Assembly: GCA_028712885.1 (NCBI GenBank)
Contig: JAQTPK010000007.1
Location: forward strand, 49,103 to 86,248
Reading direction: 5' to 3'
Origin: Syntrophales bacterium
Lineage (GTDB): Bacteria; Desulfobacterota; Syntrophia; Syntrophales; UBA4778
Length of the DNA: 37,146 nucleotides
Shown here: piece by piece, positions 7,584 through 31,197 of the stretch
Numbering within the stretch: position 1 is the stretch's first letter
How the letters are laid out: every line of letters starts with the position of its first letter
The notes under the pieces: model-generated
Seen by the model: the letters and a program-made list of their open reading frames with translations, nothing else
The model's database searches: none
Told to the model about the DNA's origin: nothing
Translations under genes and position numbers: made by a program

Positions 7584-9380
7584 TTATTCCTGATCCGTTT
7601 TAAGGACCGCCAGAAACGCGCTCTGCGGGATCGTCACGGATCCGACCATCTTCATCCGCTTCTTCCCTTTCTTCTGCTTTTCGAGGAGCTTGCGTTTTCG
7701 CGTGATGTCGCCGCCGTAGCATTTGGCCGTTACGTCTTTGCGGAAGGGGGAAATGGTCGTGCGGGCGATGACCTCTCCGCCTATCGCGCCCTGGATGGCG
7801 ATCTTGAACATGTGGCGGGGGATCTCCTCTTTGAGCCTCTCGCAGGACTGAAGCGCGCGCGCGCGGGCGCGGTCCCGGTGGACGATCTGGGACAGGGCGT
7901 CGACGCGCTCCCCGTTGACCAGTATATCGAGCAGGGCCAGGTTGCTTTCCCGGTAATCGATCAGGTCATAGTCGAAGGAACCGTATCCCTGGGTTACCGT
8001 CTTGAACCGGTCGTAGAAGTCGAAGATGACTTCCGACAGGGGCATTTCGTACGTCAGCTCCGCACGGGTGGGGCTGGTGAAATTCAGCACGGAATTCACC
8101 CCCCGCTTCTCGGTGCAGAGCTTCATGACCGCGCCCAGGTATCTTTCCGGCAGCAGCATCGTGGCCCGGATGAAGGGCTCCTCCGCTTTCGCGATCTGCA
8201 TCGGATTCGGGTACTGCGAAGGGTTGTCGATCTGGACGAGGCTGCCGTCCCTCATCGTGAACCGGAAGCGCACGCTCGGGACGGATAAAATGATGGACAG
8301 GTTAAACTCGCGCTCGAGACGCTCCTGGACGATATCGAGATGCAGGAGGCCGAGAAAACCGCAGCGGAAACCCTGGCCGAGGGCGACGGACGAGTCTTTC
8401 TGGTATATGAAGGAGGCGTCGTTCAGCTTGTACTTCTCCAGGGAGACGGCCAGGTCCTCGTAGTCGTCCGAGGCAATGGGATATATCGAGGAGAAGACTA
8501 CCGGCTTGACTTCCCGGAAACCGGGAAGCGGTTCGCCGCAGGGTTTCGCGTCGCTGGTGATCGTGTCTCCGATGCGAACGTCCGAAACGGTTTTCACGCC
8601 CGCAATAACGTAGCCGACTTCGCCGGCGGAAAGGGAATTCTGTTTTTGCCGGGCAAGGGCGAAGCGCCCGACTTCCTCTACTTTGTAAACAGCGCCGTTC
8701 GACATGAAGCGGATCATGTCACCCGCCTGGATCCGGCCGTCCATTACCCGGCAGTTTATTATCGTGCCGCGGTATGAATCGTAATGGGCGTCAAAGATCA
8801 GAGCCGCCAGGGGGGAATCCGGGTTTCCCTTCGGCGGAGGGATTCTCTCTACGATCGCCTCGAATATCTCCTCGATCCCGGTCCCCGCTTTTGCGGAGCA
8901 GGCCAGATGAGTATCGGGGTCGAGGCCCAGCTCGGCGTCGATCTGCTCAAGGACGCGCTCGACGTCCGCCGCGGGAAGGTCGATCTTGTTGATGACGGGG
9001 ATGATCTCGAGATTGTGGTCCATCGCGAGGTAAAGATTGGCGATGGTCTGGGCCTGAACGCCCTGCGCCGCGTCTATCAGAAGCAGCACTCCTTCGCATG
9101 AGGCCAGCGCGCGGGAAACCTCGTAGGAAAAATCGACGTGCCCCGGGGTGTCGATCAGGTTGAGCATGTAAATGCCGCCGTCTTCTGCACGGTAGGGAAG
9201 GGTGATCGCCTGGCTTTTGATCGTGATCCCGCGCTCGCGCTCTATATCCATGTTGTCCAGGATCTGGTCCTGGAAGTTGCGCGCGTCCACGACGCCGGTA
9301 TACTGGATCAGGCGGTCGGCGAGAGTCGACTTGCCGTGGTCGATATGGGCGATGATGCTGAAATTACGAATATGGTCCAT
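7584..9380 (-). CDS. lepA: Elongation factor 4 (LepA), ribosome-associated GTPase
   Basis: The 598-residue product is the normal LepA length. The G1 loop AHIDHGKST (11-19) and G3 DTPGHVDF carry the canonical catalytic His; NKIDLP is G4. The LepA-specific C-terminal domain ends KRMKMVGSVTIPQSAF. LepA acts on ribosomes during initiation, subunit biogenesis or back-translocation. The start at 9380 gives the family N-terminus MDHIRNFSIIAHIDHG. Sixteen extra in-frame codons to 9428 are heptamer-array sequence and are rejected. Only a weak GAG lies upstream, because array C3 directly abuts the start codon. Confidence 0.96.
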   Translation of the reverse strand: MDHIRNFSIIAHIDHGKSTLADRLIQYTGVVDARNFQDQILDNMDIERERGITIKSQAITLPYRAEDGGIYMLNLIDTPGHVDFSYEVSRALASCEGVLLLIDAAQGVQAQTIANLYLAMDHNLEIIPVINKIDLPAADVERVLEQIDAELGLDPDTHLACSAKAGTGIEEIFEAIVERIPPPKGNPDSPLAALIFDAHYDSYRGTIINCRVMDGRIQAGDMIRFMSNGAVYKVEEVGRFALARQKQNSLSAGEVGYVIAGVKTVSDVRIGDTITSDAKPCGEPLPGFREVKPVVFSSIYPIASDDYEDLAVSLEKYKLNDASFIYQKDSSVALGQGFRCGFLGLLHLDIVQERLEREFNLSIILSVPSVRFRFTMRDGSLVQIDNPSQYPNPMQIAKAEEPFIRATMLLPERYLGAVMKLCTEKRGVNSVLNFTSPTRAELTYEMPLSEVIFDFYDRFKTVTQGYGSFDYDLIDYRESNLALLDILVNGERVDALSQIVHRDRARARALQSCERLKEEIPRHMFKIAIQGAIGGEVIARTTISPFRKDVTAKCYGGDITRKRKLLEKQKKGKKRMKMVGSVTIPQSAFLAVLKTDQE

Positions 9381-9386
9381 ACAAAA

Positions 9387-9494
9387 AAGGCTCAAGGCTA
9401 AGGGCTGAAGGCAAAAGGCTGAAGGCAAAAGGTAAAGGCAAAGCAGGCACTATATCCGTATTTTACCCTTTGCTTTTGCCATTGGCCTTGAGCC
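9387..9494. repeat. Heptamer inverted array C3, forming the lepA leader
   Basis: Eight contiguous heptamers of the AAGGCNA type run from 9387 to 9442 with no phase break. The facing arm (9461-9494) carries the same words inverted, for example GGCTCAAGGC against GCCTTGAGCC. The array starts seven bases from the lepA start codon and ends where the predicted transcript starts, so the lepA leader RNA would be this array. Confidence 0.75.
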
Positions 9495-9500
9495 CGGTTT

Positions 9501-9509
9501 ATTATATCA
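9501..9509 (-). promoter_or_regulatory. Extended -10 promoter for lepA
   Basis: On the minus strand this reads TGATATAAT, a perfect extended -10 (TGn plus TATAAT). No good -35 is seen at 17 bp. Transcription would start near 9494, at the outer edge of array C3. Confidence 0.6.
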
Positions 9510-9546
9510 AATCCCGCAGACAAGAAAAGCCCTCCGGCTATATATA

Positions 9547-9697
9547 AGTCCCGAGTCCGGAGTTCCGAGTCCGGAGTTAAGGCAAGAAAGTTGAATCAAG
9601 GTGTACGGCAGGTTTTACATGACCGGCTTTACTCTGAGCACCTCGAATGCCGGACTTTTTTGCTTAACTCGGAACTCGGAACTCGGGACTCCGGACC
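9547..9697. repeat. Heptamer inverted array C4
   Basis: The left arm has five heptamers of the AGTCCGG type (9547-9581), ending in TTAAGGCAAGAAAGT. The right arm starts with the complement of that end (9654 onward) and has AACTCGG three times exactly (9666-9686), then GACTCCG. It lies 3' of adk and upstream of the lepA promoter, so it may fall in the adk 3' untranslated region. Confidence 0.75.
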
Positions 9698-9734
9698 ATT
9701 CCGCTGGAAGGCTCCTTGTCCGTCCTGGAAAACA

Positions 9735-10406
9735 TTATGCCAGTTTTTTGAGCAGGCTCTCCGATACTTCTTTCACGCCGGGAAGACCGTCCACCTCGAG
9801 TACTTTGACCCTGTCCTTGAAATAGTTCACGGCGGAAAGGGTCCCGGTCTTCGTATCGTAATAGATGGAATGCCTCTTATCGATCGCCGACTCGTCCTGA
9901 TCGTCGGCCCGGGCGCTCAGACTGCCTCCGCATACCCGGCACACAAACCCGCCGTCCTTCTTCGCCGGCTTGATGGCATCGATAAAGATGTTATTGGGAT
10001 GGTTGTTGTCGTTGGCGCACAGACGCCTGCCCATGATCCGCTTCTTGGAAGTGTCGCGGTCGAGCACGATTTCGATCACGTAATCCAGCTTCATGCCGGC
10101 CTGCTGGAGGGCCTTGTAAAGGGCTTCGGCCTGGGCCAGGTTGCGGGGAAATCCGTCGAGAAGCCAGCCGTTCTTTGCATCGGCTTCCTTCAGGCGGTTC
10201 AGGATCATAGGCACCGTAATATCGTCCGGGACGAGGTCGCCCTTATCGATATATGCCTTTGCCTTTTTCCCGAGATCTGTCCCCTTCTTGATGTTATCAC
10301 GGAAAATCACGCCCGTTTCGATGTGCGGAACGCCGAATTTCTTCTGCACAACGGCTCCCTGGGTGCCTTTGCCGCTGCCGTTCGGACCGAAAATCAGAAT
10401 ATTCAT
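9735..10406 (-). CDS. adk: Adenylate kinase with unusual zinc-type LID domain
   Basis: Adenylate kinase interconverts ATP plus AMP and two ADP in the cytosol. The 223-residue protein has the P-loop GPNGSGKGTQ (7-16), the AMP-binding segment with GWLLDGFPRN (80-89) and RADDQDE near 166. The LID has four probable metal ligands in a non-standard layout: Cys130-x5-His136-x19-Cys156-x2-Cys159, where Gram-positive zinc enzymes have two C-x2-C pairs. The P-loop has Asn where Ala/Pro is usual. The start has AAGGAG upstream. The gene follows the metallo-beta-lactamase gene by 22 bp and is probably cotranscribed with it. Confidence 0.93.
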   Translation of the reverse strand: MNILIFGPNGSGKGTQGAVVQKKFGVPHIETGVIFRDNIKKGTDLGKKAKAYIDKGDLVPDDITVPMILNRLKEADAKNGWLLDGFPRNLAQAEALYKALQQAGMKLDYVIEIVLDRDTSKKRIMGRRLCANDNNHPNNIFIDAIKPAKKDGGFVCRVCGGSLSARADDQDESAIDKRHSIYYDTKTGTLSAVNYFKDRVKVLEVDGLPGVKEVSESLLKKLA

Positions 10407-13020: not shown

Positions 13021-13145
13021 GCAAAGGGCGAAGAGTGTCCCAACGTTAGCTGAATAAATCCAGTTGGTTTTCCAAATAAGCCTACGCTTTTTTCAACCTG
13101 CCAAAGCAAAGTCAGGATTAGCCCTTAGCCCTTTGCCCTTCGCCC
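13021..13145. repeat. Heptamer inverted array C5
   Basis: A short left arm (GCAAAGG, GCGAAGA) starts immediately after the aminotransferase stop. The right arm has four in-phase heptamers, TTAGCCC twice, TTTGCCC and TTCGCCC (13118-13145). It interleaves with the 14-bp inverted repeat described separately. Confidence 0.7.
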
Positions 13146-13164
13146 AACGGAACGTTGGGACACT
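13034..13164. repeat. 131-bp segment bounded by perfect 14-bp inverted repeats
   Basis: AGTGTCCCAACGTT (13034-13047) and its exact reverse complement (13151-13164) bound a segment that contains the right arm of C5 but not its left arm. The segment is MITE-like in form. No clear target-site duplication is seen. Bases 13165-13305 hold no recognised gene or motif. Confidence 0.6.
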
Positions 13165-13602: not shown

Positions 13603-13692
13603 GTTCGCAGTTTCCGGTTCGCAGTTCCCGGTTCATTCTGAAAGGCAGGATTGTCTTTCCGCAACTGTAAACAGTGAACCGCGAAGCGTGAA
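13603..13692. repeat. Heptamer inverted array C6, filling the ligA-acyP gap
   Basis: The left arm has GTTCGCA, GTTTCCG, GTTCGCA, then two more heptamers (13603-13637). The right arm (13665-13692) is the same word inverted, ending exactly at the ligA stop codon. The 96-bp gap contains almost nothing else. Confidence 0.75.
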
Positions 13693-17132: not shown

Positions 17133-17452
17133 AATTCTTTTCGATGATTTTCCTCATGGCGTTCCTGTTCCTCGCCGTCACGTTCTCCATGCAGAACACG
17201 GGGCCGGTTATTCTCCGCTATTACAATCTGCTTGACTTCCAGACACCCGTCTATCTCCTTGTCTTCATCGTTTTTTTTACCGGGGTCGTCTTTTCCGGAC
17301 TGGCCGGTCTGATCGAGCGATTCAAGCTTTCCCGCAACATCTCCAGGCTGAAAAAGGAGATAAAGGATCTCGAAGCGGAGCTCTTCGAAGTCCGGAAAGT
17401 GCAATTAACCGATCAGAATACCGCGCCGATACGGAATGAATACCTTTCCTGA
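17129..17452 (+). CDS. LapA-like membrane protein (DUF1049)
   Basis: The 107-residue protein has two hydrophobic helices (about 5-22 and 41-62) separated by TGPVILRYYNLLDFQTPVYL, the characteristic LapA/YciS pattern, followed by a coiled coil (SRLKKEIKDLEAELFEV, about 72-90). In E. coli LapA works with LapB in regulating lipopolysaccharide synthesis; no LapB is seen here. ATG 17129 overlaps the upstream stop (ATGA) and has GGAGG nine bases upstream. A start at 17111 would add six basic residues and is less likely. Confidence 0.85.
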   Translation: MKFFSMIFLMAFLFLAVTFSMQNTGPVILRYYNLLDFQTPVYLLVFIVFFTGVVFSGLAGLIERFKLSRNISRLKKEIKDLEAELFEVRKVQLTDQNTAPIRNEYLS

Positions 17453-17456
17453 AAAC

Positions 17457-17532
17457 GGTAATAGGTCATAGGTTACAGGTGATGGGTTTTTATAATCCAT
17501 TCCTGTAACCCATTACCCATCACCCATCGCCC
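17457..17532. repeat. Heptamer inverted array C7
   Basis: The left arm has four in-phase heptamers: GGTAATA, GGTCATA, and two more (17457-17484). The right arm has ACCCATT and ACCCATC twice in phase (17508-17528). It lies directly after the LapA-like gene, 42 bp before the Mut7-C gene. It uses the same word class as C9. Confidence 0.75.
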
Positions 17533-17573
17533 GTTCATCCTCCAATCATGAAATCATTCTAATTTGAATAAAA

Positions 17574-20818: not shown

Positions 20819-20827
20819 TGATATAAT
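20819..20827 (+). promoter_or_regulatory. Extended -10 promoter for recG, probably giving a leaderless mRNA
   Basis: TGATATAAT is a perfect extended -10, identical to the one before lepA. The TATAAT box ends eight bases before ATG 20836, so the transcript would start within about two bases of the start codon. No ribosome-binding site is present. Confidence 0.6.
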
Positions 20828-20835
20828 CCGCGGCC

Positions 20836-23289
20836 ATGCCGGAGACAAAAGAAATACTGGGCAGGGTAGAGGAGGCGCTCCTCTTCGCGTCGCGGGAAGA
20901 TTGCCGCCATCTGGGCTCTGTCAGCGGCCTGGAGAAGATGGTCCTGAAGCAGATGGAAATCCTCAACCTGTCCGGGCATGATACAGGCGGCGGGTGGAAG
21001 AAAGCGATAATAAGGATCCGCAAGGCCGTCACCGGGTTCGATTCCCTTTCCGGGGCCGGCAAGGCGGCGGCCGTCATGGAGGCCGTGGCGCTGATCGGAG
21101 AGTTGAAGCGGCTTTGCGGGAAAACCGGCGGCGATCACGTCTGCGCCCAGGCGCCGGCGCCGGCCGGGGCGAAGGCCTCCGCAACAGTCCGGGACCCGGT
21201 TTCCGTACCGGCGACCGACCTGAACGGCGTGGGGAGCAGGACGGCGGAGCTTCTGCGGCGGAAGGGCGTCGAGACGGTCAGGGACGTACTTTTCTTCCTT
21301 CCCATCCGGTACGAGGATCGCAGGATATTGAAGACCGTCGCCGAAGCGGAACCGGGCCGCCGGGAAACCGTACTCGGGAGCATCGCCTCGGCCGGAATCC
21401 GCTGGTACGGACGCAGGAAGGTCTTCGAGGCCGTCATCGAGGATCAATCGGGAGGGATCGTCACGGCGAAATGGTTTCAGGGCAGGGCAGCCTACCTCCA
21501 GAAACTCCTTTCCCCGGGGGCAAAGATTATTCTGACAGGCGAGATAAAGGGGAACAGGCTGCTCAAGGAGACGCTCCATCCCGATTTCGAGATACTGGAC
21601 GGGGACGAAAACGATCTTCTGCATTTCCGCAGGATCGTCCCGGTTTATTCCGCGACGGAAGGCCTGCACCAGAAATGGATGCGGAGGATAGCGAAACAGG
21701 CGGTCGAAAAGTACGCAGATCTTGTCCCGAGCCCCATTCCGGATCACGTGTGCCGGAGGCATCGCCTGCCCTCCATGGGCGAGAGCATCCGGAGGGTCCA
21801 TTTTCCCGGGGACGAAGAGGATTTCTCATCCGTCATCCGAATGAAGACGGACGTCTTCCGGCGCCTCGCTTTCGACGAGCTGTTTTTCTTCGAGCTGGCG
21901 ATGGCGCTCAGGAAGAGCGGGAACGCCGGCGAAAAGGGGACAGCATTTGCCCCGCAGCGCGAGCTGATCGGCAGGTTCCGGCGCGTTCTCGATTTCCCGC
22001 TGACGGCGGCCCAGGATAAAGCCATGGCGGAAATATTCGAAGACATGGCTCTGCCGCGGCCGATGAACCGCCTGCTCCAGGGAGACGTCGGGTGCGGGAA
22101 GACAGTCGTCGCCATGGCGGCCGTGCTGACCGCCTGCGGGAACGGATTTCAGGCGGCGGTAATGGCTCCCACCGAAATCCTGGCCGAACAGCATTTCTCC
22201 CAGATAAGGCGGTGGGCGGAAGCCCTCGATCTCCCGTCCGTACTGCTGACCGGGAGCATGCCGGCCGGGAGCCGGAAAGAGTCCCTGGAAAAAATAGAGG
22301 CCGGAGCGGCCGCGGTAATTGTCGGCACGCACAGCCTGATTCAGGAGACGGTTAATTTCCGCAGGCTCGGGCTGGCGGTAATAGATGAGCAGCACAGGTT
22401 CGGCGTCGTGCAGAGAGGGCATCTGCGCGAAAAGGCGATTTCTCCGGACATGCTTTTTATGACCGCGACTCCCATTCCCAGGACGCTCGCCCTCACCGCA
22501 TACGGCGACCTGGACATTTCCGTGATAGACGAGCTGCCCCCTTCGAGAATACCGGTCAGCACAAAGATCGCAAGGGAGAAAGACCGCGGCCGCGTTTACG
22601 AAGCGGTGAAGAGGGAAGTGGAAAAGGGAAACAGGGTTTTTATCGTCTATCCCCTCGTCGAAGAGTCGGATGCACTCGACCTGAAAGATGCGACGGGGAT
22701 GGCGGACAATTTGCGCGAGAAGGTCTTCCCCCGGTTCCGCGTGGGCCTGGTCCATGGGAAAATGAGAGCCGAAGCGCGGCAGAAGGAGATCGAAGCGTTC
22801 CGGTGCGGAAAGACGGACATTCTCGTGGCGACAACAGTGGTCGAGGTCGGGGTAGACGTTCCGGAAGCTTCACTGATGATCATCGAGCATGCGGATCGTT
22901 TCGGGCTCTCTCAGCTTCACCAGCTGCGGGGGAGAGTCGGCAGGAGCGGCCTGCCGGCTACCTGCATCCTGATGACCGGCTGCACCCCTTCCGAGATAGC
23001 GGCGCGGCGCCTCCGCAAGATGGAGGAAACCAATGACGGCTTCCGCATCGCGGAGGAGGATCTCGCCATCCGGGGTCCGGGGCAATTCATGGGGACGCGC
23101 CAATCGGGGTTCCCCGATTTCCGGATCGCCTGCATATTCAGGGATTATGCCCTGCTGGATGCCGCAAGGCGGGAGGCCTTCATGATCATCGGGGAAGATC
23201 CTCTTCTTGAAAAGGCCGGGCATCGGCGCCTGCGGGATGCTCTTTTCCTCCGATGGGGTGACCGGCTGCGGCACCTGGATGCCGGATAG
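20836..23289 (+). CDS. recG: ATP-dependent DNA helicase RecG, long form
   Basis: RecG remodels stalled replication forks and branched DNA. The 817-residue protein is longer than the E. coli enzyme (693) because of an N-terminal extension of about 130 residues of mixed helices and an Ala/Pro linker, before the wedge domain that begins DLNGVGSRTAELLRRKGVETVRDVLFFLP. Helicase motifs: GDVGCGKT (416-423), DEQHRFG (517-523), TATPIPRTLALTAYGD, and the C-terminal TRG-type region with LRGRVGRS. Such extensions are known in other bacteria. The gene is monocistronic, divergent from EF-G2 across repeat B2, and appears to be translated from a leaderless message. Confidence 0.96.
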   Translation: MPETKEILGRVEEALLFASREDCRHLGSVSGLEKMVLKQMEILNLSGHDTGGGWKKAIIRIRKAVTGFDSLSGAGKAAAVMEAVALIGELKRLCGKTGGDHVCAQAPAPAGAKASATVRDPVSVPATDLNGVGSRTAELLRRKGVETVRDVLFFLPIRYEDRRILKTVAEAEPGRRETVLGSIASAGIRWYGRRKVFEAVIEDQSGGIVTAKWFQGRAAYLQKLLSPGAKIILTGEIKGNRLLKETLHPDFEILDGDENDLLHFRRIVPVYSATEGLHQKWMRRIAKQAVEKYADLVPSPIPDHVCRRHRLPSMGESIRRVHFPGDEEDFSSVIRMKTDVFRRLAFDELFFFELAMALRKSGNAGEKGTAFAPQRELIGRFRRVLDFPLTAAQDKAMAEIFEDMALPRPMNRLLQGDVGCGKTVVAMAAVLTACGNGFQAAVMAPTEILAEQHFSQIRRWAEALDLPSVLLTGSMPAGSRKESLEKIEAGAAAVIVGTHSLIQETVNFRRLGLAVIDEQHRFGVVQRGHLREKAISPDMLFMTATPIPRTLALTAYGDLDISVIDELPPSRIPVSTKIAREKDRGRVYEAVKREVEKGNRVFIVYPLVEESDALDLKDATGMADNLREKVFPRFRVGLVHGKMRAEARQKEIEAFRCGKTDILVATTVVEVGVDVPEASLMIIEHADRFGLSQLHQLRGRVGRSGLPATCILMTGCTPSEIAARRLRKMEETNDGFRIAEEDLAIRGPGQFMGTRQSGFPDFRIACIFRDYALLDAARREAFMIIGEDPLLEKAGHRRLRDALFLRWGDRLRHLDAG

Positions 23290-23291
23290 TG

Positions 23292-23326
23292 GCGAAGATG
23301 CGAGGATGCGAGGATGCGAAGATAGG
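23292..23326. repeat. Octamer tandem repeat after recG
   Basis: GCGAAGAT, GCGAGGAT, GCGAGGAT, GCGAAGAT occur in tandem, starting two bases after the recG stop. Unlike the nearby arrays the unit is 8 nt, and no facing arm is seen. Confidence 0.6.
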
Positions 23327-23333
23327 AAATTAA

Positions 23334-23484
23334 ATTCCAAATCCCAGGCACCAGGCTCCAGACAATATCGAAATCCCAAATTCGTATTTCCAAAGTCCTC
23401 AATAGAAAACGATTCCGGGTGTTTGGAATTTGGATATTGGTATTTGGGATTTCCTTGGTATTTGGTGCCTGGGATTTGGGATTT
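23334..23484. repeat. Heptamer inverted array C8
   Basis: The right arm has TTTGGAA, TTTGGAT, ATTGGTA and TTTGGGA in phase (23422-23449), then three more after an 11-bp break. The left arm carries TCCCAAA-type heptamers. The strongest pairing is a perfect 15-bp inverted repeat, AAATCCCAGGCACCA (23339-23353) against 23463-23477. Confidence 0.75.
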
Positions 23485-31074: not shown

Positions 31075-31102
31075 TTGACAGCAAATCCGGAATGGATAAT
31101 CT
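31075..31102 (+). promoter_or_regulatory. Sigma-70 promoter for the dnaJ-like gene
   Basis: A consensus TTGACA (31075-31080) is followed after 16 bp by TAATCT (31097-31102). The transcript would start near 31109, at the edge of array C9. Confidence 0.55.
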
Positions 31103-31110
31103 AATCTCCG

Positions 31111-31197
31111 GGTTATGGGTTATGGGTAATGGGTAGAAGAAATGTAGTTTCCTGAATCTCTATCACCCATTATCCAGTACACATAACCAATTACCTG
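31111..31197. repeat. Heptamer inverted array C9, forming the dnaJ leader
   Basis: The left arm has GGTTATG twice, then GGTAATG (31111-31131). The right arm (31163-31197) has five degenerate inverted units (CACCCAT, TATCCAG and so on). It ends just before the ribosome-binding site of the DnaJ-like gene. Confidence 0.75.

Follow-up and report, generated by a model that had tools for sequence, protein, structure and literature searches.

The gap between adk and lepA in this Syntrophales genome holds a tandem heptamer array, here called C3, that runs almost to the start codon of lepA, the gene of elongation factor EF4. The question is whether C3 is a leader through which EF4 synthesis is controlled, or a repeat that has displaced the lepA start site; both readings had been put forward in a first-pass annotation. 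The window, meaning the whole stretch of 37,146 nucleotides analyzed here, comes from a genome (G000) of 2.93 Mb in 97 contigs.

Layout of the adk-lepA gap

In the window, lepA lies at 7584-9380 on the (-) strand (TIGR01393, E 4e-286) and adk at 9735-10406 on the same strand (NF011102, E 4e-116), with adk also found as the upstream neighbor of lepA in Syntrophales relatives. Translation from the ATG at 9380 gives a protein beginning MDHIRNFSIIAHI, and sequence comparison finds the same start residue in relatives. An N-terminally extended EF4 read from TTG 9428 through the array was also considered and rejected: this frame is open, but relatives begin at the ATG. Read in the direction of lepA, the 354-bp gap comprises the 5' half of the adk terminator (AGCCTTCC, 9713-9706, a motif shared with relatives), a second two-armed heptamer element (9547-9696), the terminator 3' half (GCCGGAGGGCTTTT, 9538-9525, a motif that aligns with adk-lepA gaps of relatives), an extended -10 (TGATATAAT, 9509-9501), C3, six T, GT, and the ATG. 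The second element belongs to a GAGTTCC/GGAACTC dialect, has two arms around a 67-nt middle (inverted repeats I1, I3, and I4), and has related arrays elsewhere in the genome. It sits within the loop of the conserved adk terminator (9525-9713), which it splits and whose loop now spans about 170 nt; the adk terminator of the window is probably weaker.

The promoter-like site of lepA

The perfect extended -10 previously noticed at 9501-9509 (-) was recovered by pattern search as TGATATAAT and is likely the lepA promoter; from its position, a transcription start near 9494 is predicted. Exact TGNTATAAT occurs twice in the 37-kb window against 0.22 expected, and two occurrences were reached in 2 of 100 shuffles. 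A promoter scan of the gap region reported no -35 partner on the (-) strand. On the opposite strand, a promoter-like TTGCCA-18-TATTAT (9476-9505, 10/12) is aimed antisense at adk and is probably due to chance. The sole other exact copy of TGATATAAT in the window, at 20819-20827 (+) within the region 20819-20838, has its end 8 nt upstream of a RecG-like gene's ATG and contains an in-frame TAA, which suggests that this gene probably has a nearly leaderless start. If C3 and the T6 run were removed, the spacing from -10 to ATG at lepA would resemble that of the RecG-like gene.

It could be objected that lepA is transcribed mainly by readthrough from adk, with the -10 incidental and C3 not a leader as such. 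The adk-lepA order is kept, in many relatives the adk terminator and lepA lie too close together to leave much space for a promoter, and the split terminator of the window is a probably weaker one. We nonetheless consider readthrough unlikely as the main source of lepA mRNA: a perfect extended -10 in the correct orientation is unlikely to be a chance occurrence in a gap this short, and TTGACA-type promoter-like sites were seen by eye before lepA in some relatives (L012, L045, and L046).

The C3 array and its predicted hairpin

C3 extends from 9494 to 9389 (-) and is followed by six T (9388-9383), GT, and the ATG. Tandem Repeats Finder reports an array at 9385-9443 with period 7/14 and a score up to 81, and period 7 stands out in the window as a whole, with eight segments at lag 7, zero or one at lags 4-6 and 8-13, and two at lag 14. 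The description of C3 as a heptamer array holds, with a minor correction: strong heptamers are confined to the arm adjoining lepA (9389-9442; repeats D1 and D2), which is C-rich in lepA sense and built of TTTTGCC/TTCAGCC units, while the distal arm (9462-9494; inverted repeats I2 and I5, and the fold) is its degenerate complement. The ends of the arms pair as GGCTCAAGGC (9494-9485) with GCCTTGAGCC (9398-9389), 9389 being the last paired base. Folding of the predicted 114-nt leader gives a minimum free energy (MFE) of -40.5 (z -3.1), with none of 200 shuffles equally stable, and -42.1 (z -2.6) when the start region is included, in line with the long imperfect hairpin that had been proposed beside the start codon.

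In this fold, the AUG is left unpaired and the hairpin is closed by a perfect 10-bp stem, GGCUCAAGGC/GCCUUGAGCC, with UUUUUU immediately after it, 2 nt before the AUG. Because of the free AUG and of this stem with its U6 run, the modeled hairpin looks closer to a terminator than to a switch of translation. Transcripts from 9501-9509 might accordingly be thought to pause on U6 and mostly end before the AUG, with lepA expressed through readthrough of an attenuator. The stem immediately before the U run points this way, as do another element of the class (L009), in which A6-GGCGCAAGG..CCTTGCGCC-T6 follows a gene end, and many relatives in which a terminator likewise comes shortly before lepA, the ATG lying just 8-22 nt downstream of the adk terminator. 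However, the loop of C3 is long and structured (about 86 nt), a consensus terminator scan of 9300-9800 found no terminator, and C3 is not conserved, making such an attenuator a rather improbable primary role.

A hairpin that controls EF4 translation by blocking or opening 30S access to the AUG is a much weaker candidate still, and very unlikely. A stable hairpin 8 nt from an AUG that has no Shine-Dalgarno (SD) sequence would suit such a device, but the AUG stays outside the pairing, which disfavors simple blocking. An Rfam search of the C3 leader returned no family at the gathering score, giving only a sub-threshold match to a microRNA family on the opposite strand, and a literature search on lepA leaders yielded nothing specific.

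The missing Shine-Dalgarno sequence

No SD precedes ATG 9380 in the window, as had been noted, and the array had been held responsible for the lack of a normal ribosome-binding site. The absence stands; its attribution to the array does not. Across 43 syntenic loci with adk directly upstream of lepA (that of the window plus 42 relatives), an SD precedes adk in 39 (AGGAG in 35) and lepA in six, and the 37 loci whose lepA is SD-less are nearly all array-free. Similarly, an SD-like tetramer is absent from 45 of the 61 distinct Syntrophales-like lepA leaders. Because of this disparity between the two genes, we read the missing SD at lepA as an ancestral trait of the order that predates C3 and was not caused by it. 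Other C3-like elements near starts keep the SD outside the array (L150, L155, L003, and L008, for example; a handful of cases, by eye).

Whether lepA was also leaderless in the ancestor was considered. TANNNT at spacer 6 before the lepA ATG occurs in five of 61 leaders against zero to two at most spacers, but five are also found at spacer 0, and TATAAT-N4-10-ATG is in no excess genome-wide (72 vs. 77 for N24-30). As the spacer-6 -10 is thus weakly enriched and has no genome-wide counterpart, a leaderless lepA was rejected as a proven ancestral state and is kept as a possibility for the Syntrophales.

C3 among relatives

The adk-lepA gaps of relatives are mostly 60-150 bp long. The relatives compared include one same-family genome with a scorable lepA, G001, and none of the same genus. 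In G001, the gap is 76 bp and array-free, and a TTTGATA.. segment like that holding the -10 of the window abuts the lepA ATG. Since the TTTGATAAATCT-ATG of G001 aligns with TTTGATATAATAAACC of the window, C3 is placed between the -10-bearing segment and the start codon. A lag-7 array is present in two of 94 distinct lepA leaders, the window's own (L011) and L107, and a lag-8 array in L018. L107 comes from a distant deltaproteobacterial genome, and its array (L107:2890-3003), of CCAGTAT/CCAGCAT heptamers, continues right into the start codon of lepA. Because the repeats differ, the arrays of L011, L107, and L018 probably arose independently; L018 and L107 could hint at a local preference of repeats for the lepA start, though three of 94 are few. 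By comparison with the relatives examined, C3 is specific to its lineage. The comparison of leaders thus fits the proposed displacement of the start site, given the short gaps of relatives and the array-free segment at the ATG of G001, while C3 itself is not conserved.

A dispersed class of two-armed elements

C3 has many counterparts. At least 40 C3-like places were found in its own genome, where array counts are based on searches and fetched stretches, and matches to C3 occur in 16 of the 60 genomes searched, its own included. The heptamer arrays form a dispersed class adjoining many unrelated genes, with GGCNNAA, GAGTTCC, and GGTNNNN dialects, and many elements consist of two complementary arms. 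Further arrays of other dialects lie in the window at 13110-13153, 13603-13692, 17448-17539, 23418-23452, and 31100-31188; those starting at 13603, 17448, and 31100 form two-armed hairpins, and those at 13110 and 23418 appear single. An 8-mer array (GCGAAGAT) at 23281-23335 starts where the RecG-like gene ends.

The arms are strictly ordered: of 25 neighboring same-dialect array pairs in the genome of the window, 22 run from G-rich to C-rich, none in reverse, and three are same-sense. When the heptamers of one arm were permuted, most elements paired less well (mean z -1.94, 13/22 below -1.64); for C3 alone, the match of arm order is borderline and not significant by itself (z -1.55, 19/300 permutations). 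The two arms thus agree in unit order more closely than a shared consensus heptamer would explain, which suggests that one was copied from the other or that pairing is under selection. This statement concerns the genome of the window; few pairs turned up at the 20 places covered in G001, G025, and G007, and a stricter complement search also missed most of the pairs of the window's genome. A specific copying process, in which one arm is templated on the other via a hairpin, G-rich arm first, and the elements spread into leaders and terminators and rewire expression as at adk-lepA, is a speculative idea that we regard as doubtful, if conceivable.

A probable displacement of the promoter

Altogether, the reading that we favor, at a probability of roughly 0.6, is that C3 is a lineage-specific insertion or expansion of a dispersed repeat by which the lepA promoter has been pushed about 110 bp away from the start codon. 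It draws on what computation and comparison showed: the class is dispersed, the relatives examined do not have C3, lepA was SD-less ancestrally, and the leader is computed to fold into a hairpin. C3 would be one copy of an intergenic class in which a G-rich heptamer arm is followed, across a short middle, by a C-rich heptamer arm complementary to it. Within the adk-lepA gap, it would have inserted or grown downstream of the lepA -10 region and upstream of the start codon. With lepA starts already SD-less in the order, it could extend almost to the AUG and destroy no binding site. A short leader would thereby have become a 114-nt hairpin leader with a U6 end. Expression of lepA would probably be somewhat lowered, by early termination or slower initiation, or C3 is tolerated; an evolved EF4 switch is less favored. 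The transcription start, insertion as opposed to growth in place, and the effect on expression are the parts that we infer. Of the two readings in the first-pass annotation, displacement of the start site thus agrees with the comparative data. Translational control of EF4 found no support, as lepA is SD-less where arrays are absent, the AUG is unpaired, G001 has no array, and the class is dispersed; EF4 regulation by C3 is possible but unsupported.

Comparison with known heptamer repeats

C3 falls within the broad class of dispersed intergenic heptamer repeats, having tandem 7-bp periodicity, many copies, and convergent pairs. The GGGNATC heptamer repeats of Xanthomonas and Nostoc are dispersed, mostly intergenic, and arranged as convergent inverted pairs, with 70-75 per Xanthomonas genome (Rehm et al. 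2015, PMC4692102). The C3 class shares with them the 7-bp unit, the dispersed and mostly intergenic placement, mostly between same-direction genes, the convergent pairs and, in C3, a G-rich strand antisense beside starts. However, the units of C3 are AAAGGCT/GAAGGCA, with GGCNNAA, GAGTTCC, and GGTNNNN as dialects of the class, and its tracts are mostly GG with one GGG in the strong arm, so the G-quadruplex argument is not transferable. In Geobacter metallireducens, paired tandem hepta- and octanucleotide sites with GTTGCTYN, TCTCCGTS, and MTYCTGA units were proposed to bind protein, a proposal untested there (PMC2700814, 2009). Like the elements described here, they are short tandem repeats that occur between genes in many copies, as pairs whose members lie on opposite strands and a varying distance apart, in a host formerly classed as deltaproteobacterial, but their unit sequences differ. 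In marine Beggiatoaceae, TAACTGA direct repeats adjoin start codons of SD-less genes, and a translational role was proposed (MacGregor 2015, PMC4679880). C3 likewise lies next to an SD-less start codon, but array-free relatives are SD-less too. Whereas the Beggiatoaceae arrays are single and direct, have one TAACTGA unit, and are concentrated at starts, the arrays described here are often inverted pairs, also occupy other intergenic positions, and usually leave the SD in place.

Little follows for lepA itself, its lack of an SD being ancestral in the order and not a product of the array. With two heptamer elements in one gap, a conserved terminator has been split and a promoter parted from its start codon, and the cost of such repeats thus becomes measurable. 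Strict arm polarity and matched unit order bear on the origin of heptamer repeats, which are widespread and poorly understood.
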